Source: Chloroflexota bacterium
GTDB lineage: Bacteria > Chloroflexota > Anaerolineae > Anaerolineales > Anaerolineaceae
Length of the DNA: 44,409 bases
Assembly (NCBI GenBank): GCA_021779955.1
Contig: JAJXZS010000024.1
Span: 1-44,409, forward strand
Direction of reading: 5' to 3'
Of the stretch, positions 2,088 through 42,362 are shown in pieces. Below the pieces are notes generated by a model. It ran no database searches. It worked only from the letters and a program-made list of their open reading frames with translations, and had not been told where the DNA came from. Position numbers and translations under genes: made by a program. Within the stretch, counting starts at the first letter, position 1. Each line of letters starts with the position of its first letter.

Positions 2088-2117
2088 AAAAAAAATCGCG
2101 GCTGGTGTAGCTGCGAT
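2088..2117 (-). terminator. Terminator of the glycan cluster
   Basis: On the minus strand the stem ATCGCAGCT / AGCCGCGAT (2109-2117 with 2095-2103, one G-T pair) is followed by a run of eight T. It closes the long minus-strand cluster. Confidence 0.85.
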
Positions 2118-2145
2118 CAGAAGTATTGCGCATAGGTGTCTCTCC

Positions 2146-2541: not shown

Positions 2542-2595
2542 TTAGGCATATTCAAACAATGAATCTTAACAATTTCATATCTGTTTTTGACTTCT

Positions 2596-3795: not shown

Positions 3796-3831
3796 TTTCT
3801 TTGACTATCTCGAAAGTTCTGAAGATCTGAG

Positions 3832-5205: not shown

Positions 5206-5221
5206 TCTCTTAGTGTCTTGT

Positions 5222-7310: not shown

Positions 7311-7322
7311 TATGAACCTTCT

Positions 7323-8507: not shown

Positions 8508-9811
8508 AGCGATGGCTCCTTCTTATTGGCAATCACAATGGCGGCTGCCGCCAACCCATAGATAAACCAGTTACCCGTATTGGTGAGCGAGGCGATCACC
8601 CACATATGAATGCTCATCTGCACAAAACTTAAGAACACCGCGAGGATCAGGTAACTCCCCTTACGCGAAAACCGGTACGCCGATTTGAATCCCCCCCATG
8701 CCAGTGTGATCAACAGAATTCCAAAAGGTATTGCACCAACAAGTCCGCTTTCAGCAAGAAAATCCAGGTAGGAATTGTGAGAGGATTTTGCATTAAAATA
8801 CGCCTGATTTGCATATGATAGAATTTGAGGAATATCCAATGGGGCTGACGATTTGGTGAAGCGGCCTGCGCCTACGCCGATAATAGGGGATTGTTCAAAC
8901 AAGCGCACTCCCTTTTGGATCATCAATTGGCGGATCATGTAAGATTTTTCAGTATCAAGTGTTTGAAATGTATTGAACCGATCCACCACGCTTGTGTGCA
9001 CTTGCGGAAACGCTGTCCAGGCAGCACCGGCCAACCCAAAAATGAAAAGCACGGCGATCAACAGGCCGGCGAACTTACCTGGGCGCGATACTGCCAAAAG
9101 GATCAAACACAAAGCCAAACCGATGGCGATGGAAACCCACGACCCGCGCGAACCGTTGATGGCGGCTGCTGCCCAAAGAGTCAGAGTACCGGCAACTGCC
9201 AGAAGCTTTTTCCAACGCTTTTCTTCGAGAATGCGCAGCAATAAGAATGGTGAATAGGTTGAGAACAGGACTCCGTAGGCATTTTGCTCGAGCCAATGAG
9301 TTCGCGTCCACGCGCCTACATTGCCATAAAGGACCACTTCCAGCAAACGCAGGAGTGCGAGGGCAAGCACACCCCAGCCGAGCACTTCACTGATCCGTTT
9401 GAGCATGTCTCCCTGGCTGGCGAAGTAAGCGGTGATGACAAAGACCAGCAGCCAGTAGGCATAATGGATGGTCAGTGAAATCCCTGAGGTGTCAATATTG
9501 ACCCCTCCGCTTAGCAGGCCGTTCGCCGCCGCGCTGATGAAAATCCCCAACCAGATCAATACCGCGATGAGGATCCATCCCCGGTAAGCGCGGAACCAGG
9601 GTCGGGGCGGCTTGAGAACGGTTACCGCTGCAATTATGAAGAAGATCGGAGCGGAAAGCGAAAGCCCCAGCAGCGGAACATCGTAGAAAGGCAGAACCAG
9701 GTAAAGAGCGAAGACATAGAAGAGAAGGTAGATGATGCGGGGAAAAGCAAGGATTTTGCCTTTGAACTTATTTTGAATGTTCTCGACCGACATTAAAGAG
9801 GTATCTGTCAT
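8504..9811 (-). CDS. O-antigen ligase/polymerase-like membrane protein
   Basis: About 435 residues with some ten to twelve hydrophobic segments, a large extracytoplasmic loop and the Wzy_C/WaaL-type signature SSHNSYLDFLAESGLVGAIPF near residue 340. I chose the ATG at 9811 (MTDTSLMSVENIQ), which overlaps the stop of the GT4 gene by 4 bases (ATGA); the ATG at 9844 would add 11 residues inside that gene. Family members polymerise lipid-linked repeat units or ligate finished glycan to a carrier at the outer face of the membrane. A polymerase in a locus with an ABC exporter is not the textbook combination. If the host lacks lipopolysaccharide, the acceptor would be something other than lipid A. 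Noticeably GC-richer than its neighbours. Confidence 0.87.
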   Translation of the reverse strand: MTDTSLMSVENIQNKFKGKILAFPRIIYLLFYVFALYLVLPFYDVPLLGLSLSAPIFFIIAAVTVLKPPRPWFRAYRGWILIAVLIWLGIFISAAANGLLSGGVNIDTSGISLTIHYAYWLLVFVITAYFASQGDMLKRISEVLGWGVLALALLRLLEVVLYGNVGAWTRTHWLEQNAYGVLFSTYSPFLLLRILEEKRWKKLLAVAGTLTLWAAAAINGSRGSWVSIAIGLALCLILLAVSRPGKFAGLLIAVLFIFGLAGAAWTAFPQVHTSVVDRFNTFQTLDTEKSYMIRQLMIQKGVRLFEQSPIIGVGAGRFTKSSAPLDIPQILSYANQAYFNAKSSHNSYLDFLAESGLVGAIPFGILLITLAWGGFKSAYRFSRKGSYLILAVFLSFVQMSIHMWVIASLTNTGNWFIYGLAAAAIVIANKKEPSL

Positions 9812-11013
9812 TTTTCCAGCAGCGAGGAATACAACTGTTCCCATTTATCAATATAATTCACCCACCCGAATTCCGCGCGGATTCGTTCGTGAGCAGCTTT
9901 TCCCATGGCTTGCCGCAATTGTTTGTCAGTTCCCAACTTGACCATGGCTGATTTCAATGACTGCACATCTCCCACTTCCACATAAAGACCAGTTTTCCCT
10001 TCGATATTCGCTAAATCTGTCACACCTGGGATTCTGCTGATAATAACTGGAACTCCAGCTGCCATTGCTTCCATAGGTGCTATGCCCATACCTTCTTTTC
10101 GGCTCGGAAATACAAAAATATCAGAGAGTGCCAACAGGGTGGCCAGTTGTTTGCGATCATCGATTCTTCCCCAAAACCGTACATTTCGAAATTCCTGTAA
10201 TCTGTCAATCAAATCTGATACTTCGCTATTGTCAATATTCTGATTTTCCTTCTTCGTGTAAGGACCCATTACCCATAAGACCCATTCGGGAGATTGTCCA
10301 TTTAGCTCCAGGAAAGTATTTGCTAATAGATCAAATCCTTTTCTTAAGCCAACCGAACCTAAGAAGGAGATCACAATTTGGTTTTCCGAGATCGAATACT
10401 CTTCTCTTGATGCTCTTCTTTCCACGTCTGAACACGGAGAAAAAATATCATCGTGAATGCCGCACGGAAGACATAGGGCAGAATTGGGGTAATATTTCTT
10501 CACGCCTTCGTACAATGCCGGACTCACTGCAACAATTGTATCGATTTGCTTAAGATTGAACCTTCGTAGACGGCGATCGAGTCCCGCTTCAGAAAACATT
10601 TCAGTTTCAGTATCAGCAAGAGAATGAACCCAGACCAATTTAGCGCCACGTTTTTTTGCAGCCTTACAGGTGAGCCAGTTTCCAAAATTTGAGGTTATTG
10701 GATCTACCCCGCCTGCTCCCGAAAAATGCACAATATCAAAGTCGATCTTCTTCATCATCCGTATCGCCCAAAGAGGAAAAAGCAGCCGTCGAAGCCCCCT
10801 GCCTATTTTGGATGAATGTACTTTTGGGGATCGGAAGATTTCGATTCCGTTGATAACTTCGTGGTCCGGAAAGCCGGATGCTCCGGAGGTTAATACAATC
10901 ACTCGATGCCCCCGTTGAACAAGGGATTCAAAACGCTCGATGCTTATGAGCAGTTCACCCCCGAAATGTGGCGGCCAATAATGGTAAGAGACGAAGAGAA
11001 TATTCATTGGCAT
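9808..11013 (-). CDS. GT4 glycosyltransferase
   Basis: A 401-residue GT-B enzyme, a full-length and typical GT4. The N-terminus is ILFVSYHYWPPHFGGELLIS, a GGE acceptor loop. The donor domain holds ISFLGSVGLRKGFDLLAN, WGRIDDRKQLATLLALSD and the E-x7-E motif RKEGMGIAPMEAMAAGVPVI. It starts one base after the upstream GT4 gene ends, so the genes are part of one transcript. An in-frame ATG two codons later (MNILF) is an equally plausible start. Donor and linkage unknown. Confidence 0.91.
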   Translation of the reverse strand: MPMNILFVSYHYWPPHFGGELLISIERFESLVQRGHRVIVLTSGASGFPDHEVINGIEIFRSPKVHSSKIGRGLRRLLFPLWAIRMMKKIDFDIVHFSGAGGVDPITSNFGNWLTCKAAKKRGAKLVWVHSLADTETEMFSEAGLDRRLRRFNLKQIDTIVAVSPALYEGVKKYYPNSALCLPCGIHDDIFSPCSDVERRASREEYSISENQIVISFLGSVGLRKGFDLLANTFLELNGQSPEWVLWVMGPYTKKENQNIDNSEVSDLIDRLQEFRNVRFWGRIDDRKQLATLLALSDIFVFPSRKEGMGIAPMEAMAAGVPVIISRIPGVTDLANIEGKTGLYVEVGDVQSLKSAMVKLGTDKQLRQAMGKAAHERIRAEFGWVNYIDKWEQLYSSLLEK

Positions 11014-11014
11014 G

Positions 11015-12118
11015 TTAGTGATGAGCCCTTCCCGCTAATACTTCATCGTAAAGTTTATAGATATTCTGCATCATAAAATCAATTGTGAAGAATTCCTCAA
11101 CCCTTTTTCTTCCCGCTTCTCCCATCACCCTTCTTTTTTCTGGGGAATTTAATAGCACGAGGATTGCCTCAGCCAAGGCCTCTGGATCATCTGGAGGGAT
11201 CAATATGCCGGTTTCTGGCGTCACAATATCCAAAGCTCCCCAAACATTGGTTGCAATTACGGGTATTGCGCATGCCATGGATTCGATGGTTACCCGACCA
11301 AAGGGTTCTTTCCGGCTTGGCACAACGGATATGTCCAATTCGGGTAAGATGGTCCAGCTTTCTGGAATGTATCCTGTAAAGAGCACTTCTTCTTGGATTC
11401 TCAACTCTCTGATTATTGATTTAAGAGATTCAATATACTCTAAAGAACTTGGATCGTGATCATCACCAATAATCAAGAATTGAACGTTGTTATATTTTTC
11501 CAGGACTAATGCTGCAGCTTTGATGTATATATCTTGAGCTTTATATGGCATGATTCTACCTAACAGCCCCACTTTTGTTTTCCCGTTATCAGGTTCAAAA
11601 AGATGGTGCTCTTCATTCTTCATTGTTGGATAATTCTTCAAATCAATACCATTATGAATAACGATGCCATTATTGGACAGATTTGTCCTGTTTTGCCAGC
11701 TCGATATGGCAATATTTGCGTCTACATATTTCATAAGGAATCGACTTCGCTTATAAAATGATGGATCACGGTGATGAATAATTATGGGAGTACTCGTGAG
11801 CTTAGCTGGCAGCCAACTGTATAGAGCGTCGTCACATTGATTATTATGAATAATATCAATCTTATTCTGGTGTATATATTTGATAATTGACCCCACATTA
11901 GAAAATGCAAATAACGGTGGAGTAAATCGGGTTCTTCGGCTAATCTGGAAAAACGGTATTTCAAGTTCTTTAATTCTTTGTGCCACTTTGTCGTTATATA
12001 TCGACGCAAAATAGGGATTGACTCTTTGTCGATCCAAATGCTCTAGTAATTCATAAAGACTTCGAGCGGCGCCTCCGTTAAAATACTTCTGGTTGGAGAG
12101 ATACAAAATATTAATCAA
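11015..12118 (-). CDS. GT4 glycosyltransferase
   Basis: A 367-residue GT-B enzyme. The N-terminus INILYLSNQKYFNGGAARSLYELLEHL has the GGAARSL loop seen in many capsule GT4 proteins. The donor domain has VGLLGRIMPYKAQDIYIKAA, FTGYIPESWTILPELDISV and the E-x7-E motif RKEPFGRVTIESMACAIPVI. Very AT-rich. It is followed immediately by another GT4 gene and lies 55 bases after the GT at 12174-13298. Role in adding one residue of the glycan is inferred from family and place. Confidence 0.9.
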   Translation of the reverse strand: MINILYLSNQKYFNGGAARSLYELLEHLDRQRVNPYFASIYNDKVAQRIKELEIPFFQISRRTRFTPPLFAFSNVGSIIKYIHQNKIDIIHNNQCDDALYSWLPAKLTSTPIIIHHRDPSFYKRSRFLMKYVDANIAISSWQNRTNLSNNGIVIHNGIDLKNYPTMKNEEHHLFEPDNGKTKVGLLGRIMPYKAQDIYIKAAALVLEKYNNVQFLIIGDDHDPSSLEYIESLKSIIRELRIQEEVLFTGYIPESWTILPELDISVVPSRKEPFGRVTIESMACAIPVIATNVWGALDIVTPETGILIPPDDPEALAEAILVLLNSPEKRRVMGEAGRKRVEEFFTIDFMMQNIYKLYDEVLAGRAHH

Positions 12119-12173
12119 TGCGTTCTCTTTCCCAAATATCTAAATCATAAAAGAATTCCAGAAATCGGATCAT

Positions 12174-13298
12174 TTATTCGCAATATACTCTCAGCGTCTG
12201 CTCAGCAAAACGTTCTGGAGTGAATTGGTTTACATTGTTAAAAGCATTTACACCTGCTTGTCTGAAATCGCTGTTTACAGCACATTCCATAGCTTGACTG
12301 AGCGAATCTATATCCTCAGGCTTATAAAACCATCCCATACCTGGCTCAACCAATTCTGACATACATCCCATCCTTGGAACAATCACTGGACGCGAAAATG
12401 ATAGGGCTAGGATGGCAGAACCCGAAGTGAGGACTTTGGTGAACGGCAACACCAGGATATCTGAGGCGTTCAGATAGATCTGGACATCATTATTCTGGAT
12501 ATACCTTGTGTGAAAAGCGATTCGGTTGTCACCCTGGGCCAACTCCTGGATCATTTGCAGGTAATGATCGTCTGGATTCTCTTTCCCTGCGATCAGTAGT
12601 CGGTAATTTTCATTTGGCAGGATTCGAAAAGCACGGATTAATGTTTCGATTCCCTTTTTGGGTCGTATCCCGCCAAAGAATAAGAATACAACCGTGTTCT
12701 CAGGAAGATTGATCAGGGACCGGGCTTCATTCTTTGATATCTGGTTTGGATACCATCCGATGTAGCTGGGGTGGGGGACAACATAAACCTGTTTTCGACG
12801 GCCATACTTGCCCGCCATCAAATCTCCTGCTGCTTTGCAATGGACGATCACACGCTCCGAAAAATTCACTGCAATCCAGTGCCCCAGGTAGTCTATCCAG
12901 GCGGGTTGAACCGGATAGGTTCCCTCAAGATTGTGAAGGGTCAGTACTGTTCTATAACCCAACAAGCGTGCAGCGATCATATTTGAGGCAAACATGACGA
13001 GTTTGATGAATTTCTTTATGCCATTCGATGATTTATAAAATCCTTGGAAGTAATGAAAATGCAATATGCATACTCTTTTCCGTCTACAAACCAGCCAACT
13101 TAAAGAAAACCTTTCAGGAGTATCACTTGAAATGGGAACGCCCAACTTCTCTATAGAGGACTTCAGAATTTGCCAGTAAGGATTATCCGTCATCAAGACA
13201 ACTGCAGGAAAGAAAACCACTTCTCGTCTGTCTTCGTTCTGGGTTTGGGAAGGATGATCTTTGGGAGGGTACACTGAGGAAACGGATGATTTCTTCAT
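12174..13298 (-). CDS. GT4-like glycosyltransferase (atypical E-x7-E)
   Basis: A 374-residue GT-B protein. The N-terminal 25 residues are polar and unlike the family core, which starts VVFFPAVVLMTDNPYWQIL. The donor domain is recognisable from VVFLFFGGIRPKKGIETLIRAF, IAFHTRYIQNNDVQIYLNASD and LPFTKVLTSGSAILALSFSRPVI. The last stretch occupies the position of the E-x7-E motif but lacks both glutamates, having the LTSGS form known from a branch related to GumH-type mannosyltransferases. It is therefore probably active but with altered donor binding. Its ATG overlaps the preceding stop by 4 bases. Confidence 0.84.
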   Translation of the reverse strand: MKKSSVSSVYPPKDHPSQTQNEDRREVVFFPAVVLMTDNPYWQILKSSIEKLGVPISSDTPERFSLSWLVCRRKRVCILHFHYFQGFYKSSNGIKKFIKLVMFASNMIAARLLGYRTVLTLHNLEGTYPVQPAWIDYLGHWIAVNFSERVIVHCKAAGDLMAGKYGRRKQVYVVPHPSYIGWYPNQISKNEARSLINLPENTVVFLFFGGIRPKKGIETLIRAFRILPNENYRLLIAGKENPDDHYLQMIQELAQGDNRIAFHTRYIQNNDVQIYLNASDILVLPFTKVLTSGSAILALSFSRPVIVPRMGCMSELVEPGMGWFYKPEDIDSLSQAMECAVNSDFRQAGVNAFNNVNQFTPERFAEQTLRVYCE

Positions 13299-14539
13299 AT
13301 GTGATCGGTCAAAACAGGCGCAGATTTCTTGAGAAAGAGTTCGACTGATCGGATGTATCGTTCCAGTGTGAAGTATTGTTGGATGGTTTCGTGCGCATAT
13401 TGCGTAATTTGTTTGACTTGCTCAGGATCGTTTAGTAAAGACTTTATTATCTTTACTGCTTCAGAGATATCCCCTTCTGAAATGATGAATCCGTTTATAC
13501 CATTTGTGATGACCTCGTTCGATGCCTCATTGCCGTAGGAAAGGACCAGACAGCCGCATGCCATGGCTTCCAAAGGAACTCTGGATAAGCCGTTTTCTTG
13601 ATGACTGGGGAAGAAACAGATATCATGGGTCTGGTAAAGATTAGCCAATTCTTCTTGCGAGGTCATCGGCAGGAGAGAAATATCATGATGATCCATTTGT
13701 TCGACAACTTGCTGAATTTCATCAAAATAGGTATTAGAAAAATCCCTTCCAATAATGGTCAAGTGACTTGGTATTCCCGCTTCATTTAATTTGTCAAAAA
13801 GGGACAAGGCATCTTTTGTGCCTTTGATGGGGGTGATCCTTCCTGGGACGAGAAATTTCACTCTTCCGTCAAGCCCATTACGCGGGAGGTACTGAAATTC
13901 CCCCACGTCTATTCCCGAATAGATCACTTTCGCATTCTGTACCGGGACTCCATTTTGTTGGGCATAATCCAGTGAATGCTGGCTGTTGAAAATGATCTTC
14001 ATCTCATCCGGCCAGGTAGCGTTGGTGCAAATTCGCTTGCCGCTCAGGAAATCAACAAGGGTGTTGATCGTTTTCTTTGCCCATTTTTTGAGAGATGAGT
14101 CGTTTTCATTTTTGAAAAAATAAAGCCCCCTCTTCAGAATTCGGGCTGTGGCGATCAAGCCTTTCCCCCCCTCATCGTATACCATGGGGATTTTGCTGGA
14201 TGCAAAGTAAGGGATGATGGCGTTGGAAAGATCCCCAAGATGCCATAAATACACTAGGTCTGGTTTGAAGGATCGGGTGGTATGGTCGATAAACCACATA
14301 TCGGAAAAGTCACGAAGGATCTGGACAAGCAGCGAAGAAGCCTGGCTCTTCCTGTGAAGAATCCTGTCAACAGGTCCTTCATTAGGATGTAAGCCGCAGT
14401 GGTCATTTGTGCAGCGGGTCGTAATAATATGTATATTGTGACCACGGCTCATTAATCCATTTACGACGTCTTTGCAGCGCAGTTCGTAGCCGCCACCATG
14501 ATGCGGTGGGTAAGAGTCAACTAGGAGAAGTATTTTCAA
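13295..14539 (-). CDS. GT4 glycosyltransferase
   Basis: A 414-residue GT-B enzyme. The N-terminus KILLLVDSYPPHHGGGYELRCKD is a standard GT4 acceptor loop with the YELR element. The donor domain holds KFLVPGRITPIKGTKDALSLFDK, ISLLPMTSQEELANLYQTHDI and HQENGLSRVPLEAMACGCLVL, where the two glutamates are eight residues apart instead of seven. Stop and start codons overlap by 4 bases with genes on both sides, placing it in the middle of a tightly coupled run. Donor unknown. Confidence 0.9.
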   Translation of the reverse strand: MKILLLVDSYPPHHGGGYELRCKDVVNGLMSRGHNIHIITTRCTNDHCGLHPNEGPVDRILHRKSQASSLLVQILRDFSDMWFIDHTTRSFKPDLVYLWHLGDLSNAIIPYFASSKIPMVYDEGGKGLIATARILKRGLYFFKNENDSSLKKWAKKTINTLVDFLSGKRICTNATWPDEMKIIFNSQHSLDYAQQNGVPVQNAKVIYSGIDVGEFQYLPRNGLDGRVKFLVPGRITPIKGTKDALSLFDKLNEAGIPSHLTIIGRDFSNTYFDEIQQVVEQMDHHDISLLPMTSQEELANLYQTHDICFFPSHQENGLSRVPLEAMACGCLVLSYGNEASNEVITNGINGFIISEGDISEAVKIIKSLLNDPEQVKQITQYAHETIQQYFTLERYIRSVELFLKKSAPVLTDHI

Positions 14540-15384
14540 CTATTCGAACTCAGGTGATATCTATTAATTTCGCATTTCTTGCATACAAATATGATCATGT
14601 GGCCAAATATGTCAATCCATGCAGCTCTTTTAAGGTATTGCTTAATCGCCCAACCGCCAGGAAGACCATCGATAAAATTAAGCCAACCTGGTATCTCCTC
14701 CAATAAACCATAATAGCCAGCAATTCCGTGAGCTTCAATGACTTCAAATCCAGCTTGATGCAGGAAATTTCGAAATTCAGCTCTTCTAAATGCATATTGA
14801 AAAAAACTTGCATTTGGAGTGACATCTGCATACTGTCCGAGTTTTGCTTTTAATGTCCTTAATGGATTAACATATGGAACGGTAATGAAAGCGTATCCGC
14901 TAGGTTTAAGAACTCTGTTCGCTTCGATCAAGAAGGGTTCCGGTCCTTCAAGTCTATGCTCGACGACACCTAAAGAAATATATGCATCATATGAACTATC
15001 AGGTTTTCCGGTATTGGTTACATCGCCAACTTGTATAGATAAATCAGGATAGATTTTTTTTACCTTTTCAACTGTTTTTTCACCCCATTCTATCCCGTCG
15101 ATTTTGTTGAATCCCTTTGCGCATAGAGCGATTATGTATCTTGCATTGCCACAACCAGCTTCCAAGATAGAATCTGTTACTTTTAGGTATTTATCAAAAA
15201 TCCCCGAAAATTCGTTTAGCTGGCCTTCTTCGTATGTTTCGTAATATTCTTTGGTAATGGTATCATTCCAATAATTATCCCAATAATTGGCATCTGGCAG
15301 GTTTTGAAAAAAAACAAGGCGCCCATTTTTCCAAGCTTTTTCGCGACGATTGGTTGAATTAATCTTCTCTTTGAAAAGCGTCAT
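14536..15384 (-). CDS. Class I SAM-dependent methyltransferase
   Basis: About 282 residues with a Rossmann-type methyltransferase core: motif I ILEAGCGNARYIIALCAKGF, the acidic turn GIEWGEKTVEK, YDAYISLGVVEHRLEGPEPF (motif IV region) and LKPSGYAFITVPYVNPLR. It probably O-methylates a sugar of the glycan, or a glycolipid intermediate. I take the ATG at 15384 (MTLFKEKIN), two bases past the stop of the acyltransferase gene. A TTG at 15420 would add 12 residues, but they overlap that gene and show no better ribosome binding site. The C-terminus has an aromatic, hydrophobic stretch (IAGYYGLLEEIPGWLNF) that could bind membrane. Target unknown. Confidence 0.86.
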   Translation of the reverse strand: MTLFKEKINSTNRREKAWKNGRLVFFQNLPDANYWDNYWNDTITKEYYETYEEGQLNEFSGIFDKYLKVTDSILEAGCGNARYIIALCAKGFNKIDGIEWGEKTVEKVKKIYPDLSIQVGDVTNTGKPDSSYDAYISLGVVEHRLEGPEPFLIEANRVLKPSGYAFITVPYVNPLRTLKAKLGQYADVTPNASFFQYAFRRAEFRNFLHQAGFEVIEAHGIAGYYGLLEEIPGWLNFIDGLPGGWAIKQYLKRAAWIDIFGHMIIFVCKKCEINRYHLSSNS

Positions 15385-15385
15385 A

Positions 15386-15988
15386 TCATCTGTCTCGTAA
15401 ATATCTGGCTGGTACTCCAACCCAAACTTGATAAGATGGAATATCCGATGTTACAACAGCACCTGCACCGATAACAGCCCCTTTACAGATTCTTACACCA
15501 TCTGTAATAATTGCGCCAGCACCTATCCAGACATCATCTTCAATGACAATTCCTTGCAGACTTAATCCCTGTTTTGTGATCTGGGTTTCTCTATCAGAAA
15601 AAATGTGATTTGCTGGGATTATTACGGTATTTGCGGCAATGCGAACATAATTTCCAATTTTCAGGCCGCCATGCCCATATACGACACAATGTGGATTTAT
15701 TGAGCAATGATTTCCTATTTCAATAATTCCCCCATATGAAGAAATCACTGCAAATTCTCCAATAGTACAATTATCACCCAATATAATTGACCCCTGATTA
15801 TTGTATGCGCCGTTTACAATTGCATATGCTCTGATAGTGCACTTGTTTCCTAGCGAAATTCTTGAGCAATTGCGAAGTTCCACCGTTTGATCAATGGCAC
15901 ATGATTCGCCGATATTGGCTAATCGATGTTTCCATTTTATGAAGGCTAGTTTCTTAATTGCTTTTTCAAATATCATAATCAATCTCAT
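15386..15988 (-). CDS. Hexapeptide-repeat acyltransferase
   Basis: A 200-residue left-handed beta-helix protein. Imperfect hexapeptide repeats run through most of it, for example ISLGNKCTIRAYAIVNGAY, IGNHCSINPHCVVYGHGG and IGAGAIITDGVRICKGAVIGAGAVV. It ends in the maltose/galactoside acetyltransferase-like tail YQVWVGVPARYLRDR. The likely activity is acetyl-CoA-dependent O- or N-acetylation of a sugar in the glycan. It lies 13 bases after the Wzt gene and just before the methyltransferase, so decoration enzymes are grouped with the exporter. Very AT-rich. Confidence 0.87.
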   Translation of the reverse strand: MRLIMIFEKAIKKLAFIKWKHRLANIGESCAIDQTVELRNCSRISLGNKCTIRAYAIVNGAYNNQGSIILGDNCTIGEFAVISSYGGIIEIGNHCSINPHCVVYGHGGLKIGNYVRIAANTVIIPANHIFSDRETQITKQGLSLQGIVIEDDVWIGAGAIITDGVRICKGAVIGAGAVVTSDIPSYQVWVGVPARYLRDR

Positions 15989-16001
15989 GTGTGCTTAACT
16001 C

Positions 16002-17270
16002 TTATGATTTTCGTTGCCATTCTAACATTGGCGTAACAACACCTATCCGTTTATCTCCTAGTTCCGCCATAATGCTACCTTCAGATAGTATCTCAAAACC
16101 AACTGTAGAGGGTATTTGGTCATATTTTTGATGACCTGATATTCCCAATCCTAGCCGTAAGAAATATCTTCCTGGAAAGAGAAACTTTTCGGGAATCATT
16201 ACGACATATTCTAGTTTTCCTGGCAACCGTTGGCAAAACCGCAGATCAGGTAAATAATCCCAATCCGATGTAGTAAAAATCGGAAAACCCAAATCCGAAA
16301 TGATCGAGATTGCTGCCATACAAGCATGCAATTTCTCGCGAAAACAGATTGAGACTGAGATTCTTACGATTTCATCTTGTCTGAATTGATTGCACTCTAT
16401 GTCATCAATGTTACTAAGCTTAATTGATGTAAATTGAGCGCTTTTTGCTTTGTCAATTGGAAATAACATATGAGCATCACCGATGCTCCCACTTTTCATA
16501 TAATTGGCTATTGCATCATCAATTTTACTCTTATTAAGAAGAATACCTTTCCTCATCACCATCCCATTAATACAGAGCCGTCGGACGGATTCCATATTAT
16601 GGCTCACAAAGAGCACCGTTCTGCCTTCTCTCGAAGCCACGTCCCCCATCTTTCCTAGGCACTTCTTCTGAAACTCAGCATCGCCCACTGCCAGCACCTC
16701 GTCCACCAGCAGGATCTCGCTTTCCAAATGCGCTGCCACGGCAAAGGCCAGACGCACGTACATGCCGCTCGAATACCGCTTCACCGGGGTATCGATGAAC
16801 TTCTCGATCTCGGCAAAGGCTACGATCTCATCGAATTTGCGCGCGGTCTCCTGTTTGGTCATCCCCAGGATCGCGCCGTTGAGATAGATATTCTCGCGCC
16901 CGGTCAGGTCGGGGTGAAAACCCGTTCCCACCTCGAGCAGGCTGGCGATGCGTCCTTTCACCTTCACGAAACCGCTGCTTGGGGCGGTCACCCGCGAAAG
17001 GATCTTCAGCAGCGTGCTCTTGCCCGCGCCGTTGCGCCCGATGATCCCCAACACCTCGCCCTGCTCCACCTGGAAGCTCACATCCTTGAGCGCCCAAATC
17101 GTCTCGCCATCCGTGTTGCCGTGATCCACCTGCCCGATCTTCAGCATGGGGTTGGGTCTACCCAGCTTCTTTGCCCACCAGACCTTCATATCGTTGGTCA
17201 GCGTGCCTGTGCCAATCTGTCCCAGGCGGTAGGATTTGGAGAGATGCTCGACTGATATCGCTACTGTCAT
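16002..17270 (-). CDS. wzt: Wzt-like ABC exporter ATPase with C-terminal cargo domain
   Basis: A 422-residue polysaccharide-exporter ATPase. The nucleotide-binding domain covers residues 1-235: Walker A GIIGRNGAGKST (about 75-86), signature RYSSGMYVRLAFAVA (about 165-179), Walker B EILLVDEVLAVGD (about 185-197) and the switch His in VLFVSHNMESVRR. Residues 240-422 form a beta-rich Wzt-C-type domain, which in characterised exporters recognises the finished glycan. The DNA encoding the ATPase is GC-rich and that encoding the C-terminal part is AT-rich, changing near base 16570, so the gene looks recombinant. It pairs with the permease at 18079-18966, from which one acyltransferase gene separates it. 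A TATAAT at 17321-17326 (minus strand) could be an internal promoter, but its -35 is poor. Confidence 0.92.
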   Translation of the reverse strand: MTVAISVEHLSKSYRLGQIGTGTLTNDMKVWWAKKLGRPNPMLKIGQVDHGNTDGETIWALKDVSFQVEQGEVLGIIGRNGAGKSTLLKILSRVTAPSSGFVKVKGRIASLLEVGTGFHPDLTGRENIYLNGAILGMTKQETARKFDEIVAFAEIEKFIDTPVKRYSSGMYVRLAFAVAAHLESEILLVDEVLAVGDAEFQKKCLGKMGDVASREGRTVLFVSHNMESVRRLCINGMVMRKGILLNKSKIDDAIANYMKSGSIGDAHMLFPIDKAKSAQFTSIKLSNIDDIECNQFRQDEIVRISVSICFREKLHACMAAISIISDLGFPIFTTSDWDYLPDLRFCQRLPGKLEYVVMIPEKFLFPGRYFLRLGLGISGHQKYDQIPSTVGFEILSEGSIMAELGDKRIGVVTPMLEWQRKS

Positions 17271-17423
17271 TATTTGGAGTCTCTAGTTATTTGTATGAAG
17301 TACATCGGAAATCGTCATTAATTATAAAATCGGCAAGCCAACAATAAATGCTGTAACATATCCACTCAAAATCATTGAAGTTTTGGTGCATATTTTCTAT
17401 ACCGATTCGTTCAGCAAAAACGA

Positions 17424-18023
17424 TCAATAGAATAACGGACTAGGTGAGGACAATTGATAAGACAGATCTCGTGATCTTTCCCCTTTCTTGACAGCCGGAA
17501 CCCCTCCAACGATGGAGTAGGGTTCAACATCCTTTGTGACCACAGCTCCAGCCATGATCACCGCGCCTTTTCCTATGGTTACACCTTGGAGAATATTGAC
17601 ACCGGTACTTACCCAAACATAGTCTTCAATGATTACGGGTTTATGAATGATTTTGTAATCAGGGCTATTAATGTCGTGGGAACCTGTCCAAATTCTGGAA
17701 TAGCTGGCAAAGCTTACATTATTCCCGATTTGAATACCACCCTGACCTTGAAAATGGCAATCTGATCCAATCCTTGTGTTAAGGCCAATTGTGATTTTTT
17801 CAGGTGTTGTGATAATACAATTTCTGCGAATTGTCGAGTTTCCGGCAATTTTCATTCCGCAACAGCAATAATAAAACCGTCTGAATCGCCTGCTGGGTAT
17901 TTGGTTGATCAGAGTGTTTAACATGTAATATCTAAAGAAAAATGATACGAATTTCAGCACTTTTTTCAAGAAAGTAAAGTGCATTGTTCGGTTGGCCAGG
18001 GATTCTTGTACTTCGATTTTCAT
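17424..18023 (-). CDS. Hexapeptide-repeat acyltransferase (WcaF-like)
   Basis: About 199 residues. An N-terminal basic and hydrophobic segment ([18 protein letters not shown]) precedes a left-handed beta-helix ([28 protein letters not shown] and onward). The active-site region [13 protein letters not shown] has the His used by this family, and [30 protein letters not shown] closes the fold. Probable acetylation of a sugar or glycolipid. The ATG at 18023 (MKIEVQES) has an AAGGA ribosome binding site at the right distance, better than the ATG six codons upstream. The gene lies between the permease and the ATPase of the exporter and is AT-rich, whereas both those flanking coding regions are GC-rich: it looks like an insertion into the exporter pair. 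Confidence 0.86.
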
Positions 18024-18078
18024 GGTTTTTCCTTGAATCAATGGTTGGAAATGACCTATGCTACCCGTTATTTACCGC

Positions 18079-18966
18079 TTACACCGTATCCATGAACGTA
18101 GCTTCCACCCGGTTGAACACGATCGAACCGACCGCCACGATCACCACCATAAACCCGAAACTGTAAAGCAGGTCGAACACGCTCACCAATCCCGCCCCCA
18201 GAAAAGCGTACCTGAAAGTCTCAACGATGGGCGTCATCGGGTTGAGCCGGATGAAAATCTGAAACCGCTCTGGTATCGCAGACACCGGCAGGATCACCGG
18301 GGTGGCGTACATCAGCAGCGTCACGCCGAACGACACCAAAAAGCGCAGATCGCGGTACTTCGTCGTCATGGCCGAAATCAGGATCCCCAACCCAAGCCCC
18401 TGTCCTGCCATGATCAGCAGCAGCAGTGGGAAGGACAGGATCCAGATGTTGGGCTGGATCGCCGTCCCTCGCAGCACGAAATAACCCACAAATACCAGGA
18501 AGAACGCGAACTGGATAAAGAAAGTGATCAGGTTGGAGATCAAAATCGAAACAGGCACCGCCATGCGCGGGAAGTACACCTTGCCGAACAGGTTGCTGTT
18601 CTGCACGAATGTGTTCGACGTTTTGACCAGGCAGTCCGCGAAGTAAGCCCACACCACGGTACCGGACATATAGAAAAGGAACTGCGGCAACCCGTCCGTG
18701 GGAAGCTGGGCGATATTGCCAAAGATGAACGTGAAAGTCAGCGTGGTCAGCAGCGGCTGGATCAGGTACCATAACGGCCCAAGGATGGTTTGCTTGTACA
18801 CCGAAACAAAGTCGCGGCGCACGAACAGCATCACCAGGTCGCGGTACTTCCACAACTCACCCAGGCGCAGGTCAAGCAACCTCCGTTGGGGCTGGATGAT
18901 CAGGTCCCATTTTTCAGGCATTTCCGCGATTTGATTTTCGATTTGTTGTTCGATGGATTGGGTCAT
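18079..18966 (-). CDS. wzm: Wzm-like ABC exporter permease
   Basis: A 295-residue ABC-2 type permease of the polysaccharide/teichoic-acid exporter group (Wzm/TagG). It starts with an amphipathic, cytoplasmic region (PQRRLLDLRLGELWKYRDLV). Six membrane segments follow, with the landmark sequences VYKQTILGPLWYLIQPLL, FFADCLVKTSNTFVQNSNL-like coupling region around residues 110-135 (read here as YFADCLVKTSNTFVQNSNLF) and LNPMTPIVETFRYAFLG near the C-terminus. With the Wzt protein it should flip the lipid-linked glycan across the cytoplasmic membrane. It is the first gene of the long minus-strand cluster; a perfect 21-base palindrome lies 28 bases ahead of its start. GC-rich. Confidence 0.93.
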   Translation of the reverse strand: MTQSIEQQIENQIAEMPEKWDLIIQPQRRLLDLRLGELWKYRDLVMLFVRRDFVSVYKQTILGPLWYLIQPLLTTLTFTFIFGNIAQLPTDGLPQFLFYMSGTVVWAYFADCLVKTSNTFVQNSNLFGKVYFPRMAVPVSILISNLITFFIQFAFFLVFVGYFVLRGTAIQPNIWILSFPLLLLIMAGQGLGLGILISAMTTKYRDLRFLVSFGVTLLMYATPVILPVSAIPERFQIFIRLNPMTPIVETFRYAFLGAGLVSVFDLLYSFGFMVVIVAVGSIVFNRVEATFMDTV

Positions 18967-18993
18967 GAAAGGCTCTTTCCGTGCTCCGCCCTA

Positions 18994-19014
18994 TCGACAT
19001 GAATTTCATGTCGA
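18994..19014. promoter_or_regulatory. Perfect palindrome upstream of the glycan cluster
   Basis: Arms TCGACATGAA (18994-19003) and TTCATGTCGA (19005-19014) are exact inverted copies around a single central base. It sits 28 bases before the first codon of the exporter permease gene, a natural place for a repressor operator or for an RNA hairpin over the leader. There is no U-run, so it is not a terminator. Confidence 0.5.
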
Positions 19015-33518: not shown

Positions 33519-34817
33519 ATGTACATCCGTGGTAGCAAATGGAATATGACACGAAAGAAACGCCGAAGGGTGAATCCCTTTACGGTGATTTTTCTGTTGC
33601 TTGCGATTGGAGCGGTAGTTTTTTTTGACCGTTGGATTGCTCCAACGGTGCCGGATTTATTTATGCCCACGTTGACTGCTACGCGCCCGCCGGAATCTTA
33701 TATTTCGGATGCTCAGGAATTGGAAGCGGCGGGTAAATACACCCAGGCGATCGATGCATACAAGCAGGCGATCATCGTCGATCCCAAGAATCCATCCAAT
33801 TTTATTGCTCTGGCCAGATTGGAAATCTACACGACCAATTACCAGGAAGCGCTCGACGATTCTGCCAATGCTTTACTGATCAATCCAAAGAATTCGGTAG
33901 CACTTGCATTGCAGGGTTGGATCTATGGTTTTATGGGTGATTACATCAAAGCAGAAGGAGCACTCAATAATGCCATCGAGCAAGATCCAAACAACGCTGT
34001 CGCTTATGCATATTTGACCGAAGTGTACCTGGATATGGTCAATGCAGGCCAGGGAACGTTGGATACTATGGACAAAGCCATTGCGGCATCGAAATCAGCG
34101 CAGGCATTGGCCCCTGAGTCATTGGAGACCCACCGGGCTCGCGGACTTGTCCTTGAAAACACGAGCAACTACGAAGAAGCAGTTGCAGAGTTTGAAGCAG
34201 CCATTGCCATCAATCCCAATATCGCCGACCTGCATCTTGCACTTGGCAGAAACTACAAAGTGCTTCAGCGCTACGATGAAGCGATCAACGAATTCTCGAG
34301 GGCAATTTCCTTGAATCCAAAGGATTCTGCGCCATATTCTTTGATCAGCGGCACGTACTTCACAAACGGTGATGACGTCAAAGCATTGCAGTACGCTCAA
34401 GACGCACTCAAAGTCGGCCCCACCGATCCATATTTGTATGGGAATATTGGCCTGATCTACTGGGAAACCAAAGATTATCAGAGTGCTGTAGACGCATTAC
34501 GCATCGCCACTCAAGGCGGGGTTGCTCAATCCGGTGAAGAGGTCAAAGGCCTTCCCCTGGACTACGGTCGTCCGGGGTATTATTACTATACCCTCGGGCT
34601 CGCCCTGGCAAACCTTGGCCAATGCGGAGAGGCGTTACCGATCGCTCAATCGGTTGCTTCGAATCTCAAGACTGATGAGATCGCCCAATATAACGCCCAG
34701 GAAATTATCAATATCTGTGAGCAGGTCGCCAAATATGGTGGGGTTCCCACTGTAACTTCTGAAGCAACGCAAAGCAGTGATTCGGGTTCATCCGCCGGGA
34801 CAACTCCCGGCCCGTAA
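33519..34817 (+). CDS. Membrane-anchored TPR protein
   Basis: A 432-residue protein. A basic N-terminus (TRKKRRRVNPF) is followed by one membrane segment (TVIFLLLAIGAVVFF), so the rest should lie outside the cytoplasmic membrane. From about residue 60 to 330 it is made of some seven tetratricopeptide repeats, for example AQELEAAGKYTQAIDAYKQAI, ALQGWIYGFMGDYIKAEGALN and YDEAINEFSRAISLNPKDSA. The C-terminus is a Ser/Gly/Thr-rich tail (SSDSGSSAGTTPGP). TPR arrays bind other proteins, so a scaffold or assembly role is likely; no enzyme domain is visible. The start at 33519 agrees with a leaderless promoter; ATG at 33546 (MTRKK) is the alternative. It is a paralogue of the next gene. Confidence 0.85.
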   Translation: MYIRGSKWNMTRKKRRRVNPFTVIFLLLAIGAVVFFDRWIAPTVPDLFMPTLTATRPPESYISDAQELEAAGKYTQAIDAYKQAIIVDPKNPSNFIALARLEIYTTNYQEALDDSANALLINPKNSVALALQGWIYGFMGDYIKAEGALNNAIEQDPNNAVAYAYLTEVYLDMVNAGQGTLDTMDKAIAASKSAQALAPESLETHRARGLVLENTSNYEEAVAEFEAAIAINPNIADLHLALGRNYKVLQRYDEAINEFSRAISLNPKDSAPYSLISGTYFTNGDDVKALQYAQDALKVGPTDPYLYGNIGLIYWETKDYQSAVDALRIATQGGVAQSGEEVKGLPLDYGRPGYYYYTLGLALANLGQCGEALPIAQSVASNLKTDEIAQYNAQEIINICEQVAKYGGVPTVTSEATQSSDSGSSAGTTPGP

Positions 34818-34859
34818 TCCATTCTCTTGGGCGGATAGCGCGCTTGAGACCGACAAAAA

Positions 34860-36233
34860 ATGATTGATTACAACGGAAAACGTAATATTTTTAGCAAACC
34901 GAAGAAACAGAACAATCCAGTCAGAATCTTTATTGGCCTGTTGGTAATCCTTGGATTTCTTTTTACCATTCAAGGCTTGAACAATGGCGTAATCAATAAT
35001 CCCTTTTTACCCACACCGGTTCCCACCAGGACATTCGATTCGTATGCACAGGAAGGCGACACGCAATTTGCGGCCGGGAACCTGAAAGCCGCAATTGAGG
35101 CATACCAAAATGCTGTGAGAATCGATCCGAACAATCCTGATCTGATCGCAAAACTGGTCAGAATCCAGGTTTATTCATCCTCTCAAGAGACCACGGATGC
35201 CAACAAACGGGCTATCTTGGAAGCTGCAATCAAGACAGCCTCAGATGCTATCACAACATTCCCACAAAATAGCGCGCTAAGAGCTGTGCATGCTTTTGCC
35301 CTCGATTGGTATGCTACTCCCGACATCGCAGGAGATAAATGGCAAAGCTCTTTAATTGAGGCAGAACAGGAAGCTGTCCAGGGTATCCAATTGGACAACA
35401 CCAATACGCTTGCTCTGGTGTATTATGCGGAAATTCTTGTCGATCAACAGAAATGGAATCAGGCAGAACAATACATATCCCAGGCAATCCAACGAGATTC
35501 GACACTGATGGACGTCTTCAGGGTTAATGGCTACGTTCAGGAGTCCCTGGGCAACTATCAAGAGGCGATAGTCAATTACCAGAAGGCATTGGCAATCACC
35601 CCAAAATTGAACTTTCTATACATTTCGATTGGCGCAAACTATCGTAAATTGGGCGACATGTCGTACTACGGTTCTGCCCAATGGTCCGATTATTATCACA
35701 AGGCTTTGGATCAATTCCAGCAAGCTGTTTACATCAATGATGCCCAGACAATCAAAGATCCAATCCCGTTGATCTCGATAGCCAACACCTATGGACAGAT
35801 GGGAGATTTCCTGTCAGCTGCCAGAAATATGCTTAAGGCGGTCGAATTCACCCCCTCAGAGCCAACCGTTTATGGTCAACTGGGGATCATCTATTACAAG
35901 GGCCGCAATTACGAGGGGTCCATTTTACCGCTCAAGTGCATCATCCGTGGCTGCACTGCGGCTGAGAGTTGTGAAGTGCGCAATCATGGAGCTCCGTGTG
36001 ATTCTGCTGAAGTTCCCAATATTCCCATTCAGGGATTACCCCTGTCGCAAAGTACTGTAGCCTACTACTTCACTTATGGTTCAGTGCTTGCCGGCTTGCA
36101 CCAACCCAGTAATGGATATTGTGAAGAAGCGATGAAGGTGTTCGCTGAGGTTCGGCAGGGGTTTGGCTCCGATCCGACGATCATGTCCATCGTGCAGGAA
36201 GGCGAGTCGATCTGCCAGTACTACGGCTACTGA
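34860..36233 (+). CDS. Membrane-anchored TPR protein, paralogue
   Basis: A 457-residue protein with the plan of the preceding gene: short basic N-terminus, one membrane segment (IFIGLLVILGFLFTIQG), Pro-rich stretch (PFLPTPVPTRTF) and then TPR repeats (GDTQFAAGNLKAAIEAYQNAV, VNGYVQESLGNYQEAIVNYQKAL, YGQLGIIYYKGRNYEGSILPL). The C-terminal part contains six Cys, four of them clustered (KCIIRGCTAAESCEVRNHGAPC), fitting disulfide bonds or a metal site outside the cytoplasm. It starts 43 bases after its paralogue, probably in the same transcript. A tandem duplication followed by divergence is the simplest origin. Function unknown. Confidence 0.85.
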   Translation: MIDYNGKRNIFSKPKKQNNPVRIFIGLLVILGFLFTIQGLNNGVINNPFLPTPVPTRTFDSYAQEGDTQFAAGNLKAAIEAYQNAVRIDPNNPDLIAKLVRIQVYSSSQETTDANKRAILEAAIKTASDAITTFPQNSALRAVHAFALDWYATPDIAGDKWQSSLIEAEQEAVQGIQLDNTNTLALVYYAEILVDQQKWNQAEQYISQAIQRDSTLMDVFRVNGYVQESLGNYQEAIVNYQKALAITPKLNFLYISIGANYRKLGDMSYYGSAQWSDYYHKALDQFQQAVYINDAQTIKDPIPLISIANTYGQMGDFLSAARNMLKAVEFTPSEPTVYGQLGIIYYKGRNYEGSILPLKCIIRGCTAAESCEVRNHGAPCDSAEVPNIPIQGLPLSQSTVAYYFTYGSVLAGLHQPSNGYCEEAMKVFAEVRQGFGSDPTIMSIVQEGESICQYYGY

Positions 36234-39330: not shown

Positions 39331-40074
39331 ATGAATTTTGCAGACCAGGATGAGATTGCAGCGAGATTGGAACGCAGACGCAGAAGGCAGCGCCACGATG
39401 CAACCTGGAATGTGTTGACCGGATTCGTTCTCTTTGTGGCATTGATCCTTCTGGGCTATCTTGCTCTTCTTTTCCTCGATCCTTCGTTACCTTTCAATCC
39501 GTTTCCACCGCCGACCTTACCATCAGCGGCAGGATTTGTTGCGACCGCAACTTCATACGTGCTGCCTCCAACGAAAACAGTGACGTCTTCGCCAACGGCA
39601 ACACTCGTACCTCCAACGGTTACGAACACTCCAGAGGCTACTAATTCTCCGACGCCATTGCCGATCGTGATCACTTCCGATCCAAACACCGAATTCCCCT
39701 ACGCGTTGGAGAGTAATCCTATCCCCATGTCGAACCTCGTCTTTCATCCAGATGGAAATTGCAGCTGGCAGGGCGTTGCCGGCCGTGTTGTCGATTTGCA
39801 GGGACGTCCGGTCGAGGGACTCGCCGTTCATTTGAGCGGAACCTATAATGGCACACCTGTAGATATGACAACTCTCACCGGTGGAGCACAGGCCTGGTAT
39901 GGTGAATCGGGGTTTGAATTCGTCCTGGGTTCGAAGCCGGTCGGATCGTCGGGTCAGTTGATCCTCCAATTGGCCGATCAAGGAATGGTGGCCATCTCGG
40001 CAACGGTGCAGTTCGATACATACGCCGAATGCGACAAAAACCTGGTTCTAATCAATTTCAGGCAAGTGAGGTAA
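39331..40074 (+). CDS. Membrane-anchored protein with Thr/Pro linker
   Basis: A 247-residue protein of unknown function. A basic, cytoplasmic N-terminus (AARLERRRRRQRHDATW) is followed by one membrane segment (NVLTGFVLFVALILLGYLALLF). An extended Pro/Thr/Ser linker then covers about residues 50-110, with TATSYVLPPTKTVTSSPTAT as a sample. The C-terminal globular domain of about 130 residues, starting near NLVFHPDGNCSWQGVAGRV, resembles carboxypeptidase-regulatory-like beta-sandwiches (VVDLQGRPVEGLAVHLSG) and includes a pair of Cys that could form a disulfide. It should therefore stand on the outer face of the membrane. AGGA ribosome binding site; ends just before a terminator. Confidence 0.78.
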   Translation: MNFADQDEIAARLERRRRRQRHDATWNVLTGFVLFVALILLGYLALLFLDPSLPFNPFPPPTLPSAAGFVATATSYVLPPTKTVTSSPTATLVPPTVTNTPEATNSPTPLPIVITSDPNTEFPYALESNPIPMSNLVFHPDGNCSWQGVAGRVVDLQGRPVEGLAVHLSGTYNGTPVDMTTLTGGAQAWYGESGFEFVLGSKPVGSSGQLILQLADQGMVAISATVQFDTYAECDKNLVLINFRQVR

Positions 40075-40082: not shown

Positions 40083-40108
40083 AAAGAGGGCGAACGCCCT
40101 CTTTTTTT
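40083..40108 (+). terminator. Terminator after the PpiC operon
   Basis: AAAGAGGGC and GCCCTCTTT stem (40083-40091 with 40096-40104) with a GAAC loop, followed by TTTT. The minus-strand gene ends at 40107, so it overlaps its stop and may serve both strands. Confidence 0.85.
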
Positions 40109-42362
40109 ATAGAAAGATACTGAGTTGAGTATCTTTCTCAGAACTCAAGGGGTCTCCATCAAGCAGCATCATCCACAGCTCCTGGTTGAGCTCTGGTCGA
40201 TTAGCCAAAGATTCAAGGTAGCGAAATTTCAAGAAATGCCACTCGTTACGGGTCATTTCCCGTAAGCTTGGATTTTGGTTGAGCTTATGTTGGATCAAGG
40301 AAGAACGACTTCCGGGAAAAACATACACAGACTGCGTTTGCTCTACAACCGATGGGCAGGCATAAGACTGGAAGATGGCCGATGCGCCAAGGAAGAAACG
40401 ATAGATCGGTTCTTCCTGCTTTCGGGTTTGCCAAATGATCGGTTGGTCGCCTGAAGATTGATAGCCGAGCCGTTTAGCCGTCTTGCGCAGAAAATCTCGC
40501 ATCTGGCTTAATTCGGATTTCCGTTCCTCTGGAGTCTCGCCCGGTTTGATGTGCCAGGAACCGTCCGTGAAATTGAAGTCGGCATACGATTCAAGGCACG
40601 CTCGGAGGATCTCGTCGTCTGGTGTAAGAACTCCCGGCAATACCGAATAGAGGATATTCTGTAAATCGGGTAAACGTATGCTTCCGCGGTCCAACAGAAT
40701 TCTGACGATTTCCCTTTCCACTCGATCGTCTAAAGGTTCAGCGCAATTCTCTTGATTTTCGAGGAACCATCTGCCCGGCTCGATTTCCTGGGCGACAGAG
40801 TCAAAATGGTGGACAAAGGTTTTCTCAAGCAAGATGCTGCTAAATGATTTTTGTATTTCATTGAGCTTCTCGGGCGTCAATTTCTCATCTGAGGTCGGCA
40901 GCAGATTCGCCTTCGCCAACGCGCCCATTGTGGCGAGAAATGGCTGCAGGTAGCTGGTAGGCTGACCCAACGCCATGAATGTATTGCGAATCGTCTGTCG
41001 GATGGTGTTTTGCAGGCTTCCTTCAATTGGGCGAAGTGTCTGATCGTTGGTCGCCCAAAGGAACTGTACTTCTCCGGTTTCGGATTTGCAAGCAAATCCT
41101 TTGAGCAGGCAATTGGCAGCCGAAGCAGCTGAAGTCGCCGCGAGAACAAACCCAGGGGTGGCATTCGACACCAGCCCAAGGATCGGTGTGCTTATCTTCG
41201 TGGTATGGTTGACCGCCTCGAGCGTCGAATGAAGCGCTCGAGCGTGCCAATGCCAGTCGAAGCGTCGCCTGCCCAAAACACCCGAATAGTGCGCGCTTGT
41301 CTCTTTGCCCCAGACCCAGGCAGACCAAAGAGCTGAAAGTGTCCAGAATGCCTGATTTGGGCGCGGCAGGCAGCACGTTACAGCTGTGAAATCGAGATCG
41401 TGTCCTTCATTGTGCAATTCCCTCGTCCGTCCCGGGTAAACACAGATGCCGGCGTCTTGCGGTAAAGCGGGCCAATGCGTGAACTCGATAGTCGCCGAAG
41501 CGCTATGCCATCTATCTACTGCTGCTTCAAGCTCCATCCAGAGATTTTTTTCCACAAACTCGGCGGGCGCTTGCAACAGATGAGGAGTTTCTGATGTTTC
41601 TGGCCAGGGCCAGAGGTTCGTACCCGCGTCAAGCACAGGAAGAAGCAGCGCTTGCAGCATCCTCTTGCTGCTCATGCTTGAAGAATAGGCATCCAGTTTG
41701 TTGAGGAGATTGAAGATGACAACGAGCGAGCGCACAGTATAGTTCTTCAGCGCTTCTTCAACGTTATCCCTTTCATCTTCGTCCATATCCGGACGGATGG
41801 CTTTTTCAAGTGCTCGCGCCCGGTGAAGCGGCTCCGCTCTCTGCAGCGGGTTAAGGCGCTCGATATCGCTTTCGGTTGACGGATGAACACCCGAGTCGCC
41901 GCAATGCGGGCACGTGTACATGCGTGCATATGGCGATTTCTCATTGCGTTTCCAGATAAATCCGTTTGCCTGGATCTCTCTCCCGCACGTAGCGCATGTC
42001 GTCAGGTAGAATGATCGGATTAATGTCTCGAGGCTCACATCGCCACGCCGGCTTGCTGCAAGATCAGCCAGGGCAGCCTGGTAGTCGCTGCGCTGAGGAG
42101 GTTGGCAAAGCATCTGTAATTCGAATGCGAGAAGGGGGTTGTTAACAGCGGCCAGTACGCGATATCCCGCTTTTGCTGCATGGATGGAAGTCAAAGGCGT
42201 AGACCCGAAAGGATCGAGCACCCAGGAGTTGCCCGGTGCAAGATCTTTCAGCCAGGAAGAAATTACACCCGGGGGACATTCGGGCAAAAATCGATCCAGG
42301 GGTGGAGGTAGAGATTCTCCAGTAGATGCCAGGTATGGAACATTAAGGTCGTATTCCATCAT
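40107..42362 (-). CDS. DNA-methylase-like zinc-ribbon protein, catalytic motif degraded
   Basis: About 751 residues from the ATG at 42362 (MMEYDLNVPYLAS); the longer frame to 42407 begins inside a terminator. An N-terminal DPFGSTPLTSIHAAKAGYRV-type glycine loop followed by NNPLLAFELQ (about residues 50-82) matches motif I of large adenine-specific DNA methylases of the DUF1156 kind. A four-Cys zinc ribbon follows (CATCG..CPHCG, about 123-164), also as in that group. Where those enzymes have T-DPPY and the Y-x-L-S-x-F-x-x-x-W region, this protein has FTAVTCCLPRPNQAF then TLSALWSAWVWG, so the DPPY motif is lost. A winged-helix-like segment (EREIVRILLDRGSIRLPDLQN) and an unassigned C-terminal domain complete it. 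I infer a nucleic-acid-binding, probably non-methylating protein. It stands alone, with no restriction partner nearby. Confidence 0.7.
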   Translation of the reverse strand: MMEYDLNVPYLASTGESLPPPLDRFLPECPPGVISSWLKDLAPGNSWVLDPFGSTPLTSIHAAKAGYRVLAAVNNPLLAFELQMLCQPPQRSDYQAALADLAASRRGDVSLETLIRSFYLTTCATCGREIQANGFIWKRNEKSPYARMYTCPHCGDSGVHPSTESDIERLNPLQRAEPLHRARALEKAIRPDMDEDERDNVEEALKNYTVRSLVVIFNLLNKLDAYSSSMSSKRMLQALLLPVLDAGTNLWPWPETSETPHLLQAPAEFVEKNLWMELEAAVDRWHSASATIEFTHWPALPQDAGICVYPGRTRELHNEGHDLDFTAVTCCLPRPNQAFWTLSALWSAWVWGKETSAHYSGVLGRRRFDWHWHARALHSTLEAVNHTTKISTPILGLVSNATPGFVLAATSAASAANCLLKGFACKSETGEVQFLWATNDQTLRPIEGSLQNTIRQTIRNTFMALGQPTSYLQPFLATMGALAKANLLPTSDEKLTPEKLNEIQKSFSSILLEKTFVHHFDSVAQEIEPGRWFLENQENCAEPLDDRVEREIVRILLDRGSIRLPDLQNILYSVLPGVLTPDDEILRACLESYADFNFTDGSWHIKPGETPEERKSELSQMRDFLRKTAKRLGYQSSGDQPIIWQTRKQEEPIYRFFLGASAIFQSYACPSVVEQTQSVYVFPGSRSSLIQHKLNQNPSLREMTRNEWHFLKFRYLESLANRPELNQELWMMLLDGDPLSSEKDTQLSIFL

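Follow-up and report, generated by a model that had tools for sequence, protein, structure and literature searches.

The gene at positions 40107–42362 of the analysed stretch of DNA (44,409 nucleotides, in the following termed the window) encodes a protein of 751 aa that, as judged by profile comparison, descends from an N6-adenine DNA methylase of the BrxXI/DUF1156 class and carries a different, conserved sequence in place of motif IV. The zinc ribbon and the methyltransferase (MTase) core are kept and the protein ends in a conserved clamp-type peptide, a combination that is most simply accounted for by a DNA-binding factor of replication or repair. The reading that we favour, tentatively and at a little less than an even chance, is that of a replication- or repair-associated, non-methylating protein that would bind DNA, would be tethered to the sliding clamp and would have been domesticated from an RM- or BREX-like methylase.

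The gene and all of its parts described below lie on the reverse strand. The reading frame extends from an ATG at 42360–42362 to a stop codon at 40107–40109, in agreement with the frame and coordinates given in an earlier note on this DNA; a TTG start 45 bases upstream of the ATG would yield an alternative product of 766 aa. The host genome (2.8 Mb, 56 contigs) contains the gene as a single copy, with one match. A terminator-like hairpin (40083–40104, forward strand) between the family gene and the convergent gene at 39331–40074 is a weak assignment, as three sites were found vs. 3.2 expected in shuffles. Searches with the single protein in Pfam, NCBIfam and PDB sequences returned nothing above cut-off, so that relatives and profiles were needed; its match to the PADLOC model MTase_II has an E value of 0.0016.

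Two alignments of family members, A1 with 41 sequences and the broader A2, were used together with an alignment of four plasmid-borne methylases (A4). Family counts refer to 100 members, among them the window's protein (L001), with members identical over the last 300 residues counted once and with L060 and L061 (distant), L062 (a fragment) and members below 150 bits left aside; 19 relatives from outside the order of the window's host, 752 aa and longer, were examined at full length. In the set of 69 sequences used for conservation within the order, the protein enters as the window itself. Among named genomes, 231 pattern matches encode a relative, and the best 80 of these, 79 with a usable frame, constitute a named set that overlaps the other genomes used, is not independent of them, and favours the window's order because the search pattern was taken from the motif IV region. 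The titles of these best 80 name Chloroflexi/Chloroflexota, Anaerolineae or taxa that we take to belong there, which suggests that the window's order is the Anaerolineales, and hosts include Longilinea arvoryzae, Anaerolinea thermolimosa, Levilinea saccharolytica, Ornatilinea apprima and Pelolinea submarina. The excluded L060 (2340–5477, reverse strand) and L061 (2463–5468, reverse strand) are related frames of about 1000 aa with a methylase-like zinc-ribbon N-terminal half and a C-terminal half resembling the electron-transfer subunit of dihydroorotate dehydrogenase (Pfam scan of L060), an odd fusion.

Comparison of A1 with A4 by hhalign gave a match at 99.3% (E 4e-20, 399 columns), and A2 matched the plasmid-borne methylases at 99.9% (8.4e-35). 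Three scanned A4 methylases are recognized by the PADLOC model PglXI (1e-85, 4e-48 and 1e-108), and methylases of the BrxXI/PglXI type, i.e., DNA adenine methylases, are the closest active relatives found. With A2, matches restricted to motif I were further obtained to RsrI and to a DNA methylase from Thermus (about 1e-6). The distant member L114 is matched by 27 plasmid records, the first 15 of which were listed and five examined, and none of the matches listed exceeds 80% of L114. No match to the Pfam domain DUF1156, presumably PF06634, appeared at E values up to 10, in a search whose HMMER filters can drop weak matches; the previous assignment as a DUF1156-type protein is upheld as to methylase descent and amended as to the closest relatives. 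The MTase-fold domain with its inserted zinc-ribbon and helical module occupies approximately residues 9–441 (41040–42338), as supported by VIA-align and the BrxXI/PglXI-type profile match. BrxXI/PglXI proteins (type 3 BREX) and DUF1156 BR-type methylases share with the window family the MTase core with a zinc-ribbon insert as well as Y..R and E.N.W motifs; the family differs from them by the absence of DPPY, loss of GxG within the order and lack of recognised BREX genes, and by the addition of a restriction-endonuclease (REase)-like domain, a clamp-type tail and inheritance along host families.

In the profile alignment with the active relatives, the motif IV word of the window protein, C331-L332-P333-R334 (41361–41372), stands opposite DPPY, just as the earlier note had proposed. 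DPP is invariant in the four A4 methylases and DPPY was read in two of them, whereas the pattern (D/N/S)PP(Y/F/W) occurs at the motif IV column in none of the 100 members and another word is present in 79/79 sequences of the named set. Within the window's order, 80/81 members retain the second proline and 79/81 have arginine at the tyrosine position; distant members feature DPPR (L124), RPPY (L111), SPPR (L115), QPPI (L117) and similar words. The possibility that relatives carry an intact DPPY at a different position found no correspondence in the sequences: well away from motif IV, DPP(Y/F/W)-like words are confined to five of the 100 members and (D/N/S)PP(Y/F/W) words to 3/79 sequences of the named set, in both cases in unrelated columns. 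The four cysteines of the zinc ribbon (C123, C126, C151 and C154; 41901–41996), already reported as kept, are present in all 100 members. Downstream of the MTase domain, the helical region of approximately residues 450–605 (40548–41015) is possibly helix-turn-helix (HTH)- or winged-helix-like, as suggested by its secondary structure and by its likeness to the C-terminal domains of BrxXI; in PMC12839542, methylases of the BrxXI/PglXI and DUF1156 BR types are described with a module inserted behind core strand 2 and with HTH-like domains following the core.

The protein ends in a tail that, following the ordered part, is disordered in the AlphaFold2 model (pLDDT below 50 for residues 743–751) and contains the pentapeptide QLSIF (residues 746–750, 40113–40127), a feature absent from the earlier note. 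According to PMC12309361, the common clamp-binding motif is QL[S/D]LF, more generally QxxLF, and the C-terminus of Bacillus subtilis PolC reads QLSLF; QLSIF is one residue off the strict form. A looser pattern, Q[LMIV]x[LMIFV][FLWM], is found within the last nine residues of 79/100 members vs. 4 of 1444 other open reading frames, the controls being mechanical frames of at least 150 aa with spurious and repeated ones included. Shuffled tails carried the loose pattern 2.0 times on average and seven times at most in 1000 rounds, and as tail copies share descent, these shuffles overstate their independence. With any residue allowed at position 2 the count rises to 87/100, while QxxLF and the strict QL[S/D]LF are present in 24 and three of the 100 members, respectively. 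The loose tail occurs in 11/19 members from outside the order, in 75/79 sequences of the named set vs. 1/341 others and, in a subset of 59 members, at least once in 15 of 20 host families and in none of the members from the other five; some proteins end differently (KVPLL, HLPMM or QLAFKW). The host genome also encodes a Y-family polymerase with an internal QMGLW and two UDG-family proteins, one of which ends in QLSLF (L132 on contig C27). At L063, a similar protein (7178–7810, reverse strand), named by eye and likewise ending in QLSLF, adjoins the family member. PolC and the UDG-family protein of the host thus resemble the window protein in QLS(L/I)F at the extreme C-terminus; the window protein differs in having neither a polymerase nor a glycosylase domain, and its docking on the clamp is a prediction. 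In the open-access literature searched, no paper brings together Chloroflexi, a methyltransferase, the sliding clamp and a clamp-binding motif.

A transcription-type regulator or a nucleoid protein that binds DNA via the zinc ribbon and the helical domains, and in which the tail has a different role, would agree with the invariant cysteines, the loss of catalysis and the helical character of the middle region. This explanation leaves the conserved clamp-type tail unaccounted for and we regard it as unlikely.

The C-terminal domain, considered additional and unassigned in the earlier note, is indeed an additional domain, and via the distant members of the family it can be assigned: profile comparison relates it to type II restriction-enzyme-like domains. 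The degenerate REase-like part comprises residues 611–720 (40203–40532), on the evidence of helix-strand order and of the profile match to the distant members. Residues 548–751 matched the same domain of 16 distant members at 99.8% (E 3.5e-30), and in 10 of these 16 the domain is recognized by the PADLOC REase_II model PDLC03534 (best value 1.2e-5). The distant-member domain in turn matched WP_028197037.1 from Paraburkholderia fungorum and WP_008652084.1 from plasmid pMOL30 of Cupriavidus metallidurans (together alignment A5) at 97.2% (3.1e-11), two proteins that PDLC03534 itself recognizes (1.4e-12 and 3.8e-11). When A1 is compared directly with A5, the match is weak (7.3%, E 0.0048), and nothing meaningful was retrieved with the C-terminal domain of the distant members from PDB, Pfam and NCBIfam. 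The PDLC03534-type proteins resemble the family in a C-terminal domain with the signature ID.iWl...aFEVEh.t; they exist as independent proteins (about 420 aa), in contrast to the window protein, whose copy of the domain is devoid of the acidic positions. Strand order and homology suggest a PD-(D/E)xK fold. In the fold searches described below, no nuclease appeared among the matches listed; as the MTase domain dominated these searches, this is no evidence against a nuclease-like fold.

Outside the window's order, 17 of the 19 members retain the aspartate as well as an acidic residue at the second FEVE position, 12 of these 17 also having the first glutamate, and the two exceptions, L124 and L112, both stem from the window's class. 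Within the order, the aspartate column is a gap in 79/81 members in an alignment-dependent manner (proline in another alignment), and a single member of the 81 retains the second acid of FEVE. A replacement of mismatch repair was considered as a role for the family and dropped. Of 18 chosen genomes, 15, the host's own included, encode MutL (PF01119) and two have the Pfam domain NucS_C, with no match in the host's own. The aspartate and the second acidic residue are kept by members from genomes without MutL and NucS_C (G184, G217 and G280) and also by members from genomes with MutL (G173, G160, G215 and G152), which speaks against a clean replacement of mismatch repair.

Family matches were obtained in 111 of 151 genomes searched, the host's own included. 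Among genomes of good quality, 72/89 have a match and 17/89 do not, so the gene is not essential everywhere. Absence often concerns whole genera: among the genomes listed (20 more without a match are outside the list), the gene is missing from genera g11 and g17 altogether, with four genomes each, and in the host's own genus it is missing from four, one of them 95% complete. A profile search across 400 genomes of the phylum (E up to 1e-3) yielded matches in 108, or in 89 of 294 of good quality; these include weak partial matches that are perhaps not members, and 74 of the 108 fall outside the window's order, some of them being weak. In a tree of 77 members, calculated by a quick method with SH-aLRT support only, host-family labels change 20 times, the minimum being 19 and the mean of shuffled labels 39.3, with none of 200 shuffles as low; families f1 and f14 each do not form a single clade. 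The best reading of this tree, which follows host families, is vertical inheritance of the gene. No family match was found in 50,697 phage records, and none of the pattern matches in viral contigs (64 for A1, five for A3) proved to be a relative by tblastn.

Reading the neighbours by eye, we recognised no defence genes around the family gene and no BREX-like genes among the open reading frames of the window. In the host's own genus, the neighbours, named by eye, are groESL-like, TrpB-like and hypothetical genes, and in 9 of 12 loci the TrpB-like gene is located 59–116 bases upstream on the same strand, so that the family gene may be co-transcribed with this unrelated one. Other families show a penicillin-binding-protein-like gene (by eye) at the 3' side on the opposite strand (30/69 loci). 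No operon partner conserved across the order was apparent in the 69 loci, and no repair-gene neighbour is conserved. In 9/19 loci from outside the order, the family gene has a TPR-like gene (by eye; about 280 aa) in its vicinity, in many cases a short distance upstream and in the same orientation (L119, L123, L125 and others), and in one of the 19, L113, a helicase-like gene (by eye) starts nine bases after the family gene (1272–3536, reverse strand) on the same strand. Elsewhere in the window, positions 2596–19000 are occupied by an extended series of genes resembling those of glycosyltransferases, acyltransferases and ABC exporters, by eye a surface polysaccharide cluster, and the groES/groEL-like genes are adjoined by a tandem pair of TPR-repeat-like genes coding for an N-terminal hydrophobic segment (33519–36233, by eye).

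These observations bear on the proposal that the protein is a stand-alone anti-phage or restriction-like factor, in which the former methylase would read sequence or modification, the nuclease-like domain would attack invaders and the clamp would serve to find replicating phage DNA. The ancestry in common with BREX and BR methylases, the REase-like domain and the acidic residues retained outside the order fit such a role, whereas inheritance along host families as a single copy, the lack of defence genes recognised by eye in the vicinity and of phage matches, and the loss of the acidic residues within the order argue against it and render it distinctly unlikely. The idea in the earlier note of a DNA- or RNA-binding regulator or defence component made from a methyltransferase can accordingly be retained for a methylase-derived, probably non-enzymatic protein that would bind DNA, and is not supported with respect to defence; a multi-gene system is likewise not supported.

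Structure prediction, which had been recommended as a check, shows that the MTase fold is retained in the predicted structure. The AlphaFold2 model calculated on A1 has a mean pLDDT of 91.8 and a pTM of 0.89, and its VIA-align neighbours at Z 12.5 are TrmN and Trm14 (3tma, rmsd 2.9; 3tlj, rmsd 2.8; 172 residues aligned each). For a model of the distant member L114 (pLDDT 84.4), VIA-align gave Z 16.6 with Trm11 and the top Foldseek match was CcrM (E 1.1e-3); Foldseek matches with E below 0.001 were obtained for neither model. Motif I, DPFGSTP at residues 50–56 (42195–42215), is present where it had been reported, albeit in altered form: GxG is lost, and the position of the second glycine is occupied by proline in 81/81 members of the order and by glycine in 11/19 outside. 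The well-kept fold, the tRNA methylases TrmN, Trm14 and Trm11 among the structural neighbours and a seemingly intact motif I (DPWAGTG) in the distant members L119 and L130 would be compatible with an active methyltransferase that uses an unorthodox motif IV on another substrate, RNA or protein. Given the proline in motif I throughout the order and the xxPR-like motif IV, we consider this improbable and accord it little weight.

P333, R334, P335, A338 and W340 of the sequence PRPnqAfW at the motif IV site are each conserved in at least 90% of the 69 sequences from the order, and this stretch together with the tryptophan residues following it is among the most conserved of the protein. The replacement of motif IV by a conserved sequence argues for constraint rather than decay, and the loss appears to be ancient and to have been followed by constraint. 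That the gene is a decaying pseudogene or an annotation artefact, as the loss of two catalytic centres might suggest, is hardly credible in view of strongly conserved residues and frames that are open in nearly all matches (two list one internal TGA).

For the favoured clamp-tethered DNA-binding factor, the following mechanism can be envisaged. The ancestor would have been an N6-adenine DNA methylase of the BrxXI/DUF1156 class that carried a restriction-nuclease-like domain, methylation having since been lost. The MTase, zinc-ribbon and helical surfaces would hold or scan DNA, and the nuclease-like domain would be a structural or DNA-contacting module, perhaps active only in the distant members that kept the acidic residues. 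The QLSIF peptide would dock the protein on the DnaN sliding clamp, from which we propose action at replication forks or repair sites. NucS/EndoMS is a clamp-linked nuclease, and the combination of a nuclease fold with a clamp peptide is similar as an idea only, as no result links the families.

Viewed across the phylum, a Chloroflexota lineage may have converted a fusion of an RM- or BREX-like methylase with a nuclease into a genome-maintenance factor tethered to the clamp, with distant members, in which D..E.E is kept, possibly cutting DNA at sites found by the ex-methylase reader and with the window's order having lost both centres to become a scaffold at forks or repair sites; we put this forward as a possibility that is more doubtful than not. 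If true, the family would represent a clear bacterial case, from a phylum that has received little study, of an RM-type enzyme domesticated for a role in replication or repair, and the tail peptide would offer a built-in, directly testable handle. It would also caution against assuming methylation by the large methylase-like proteins of this type that Chloroflexota encode.
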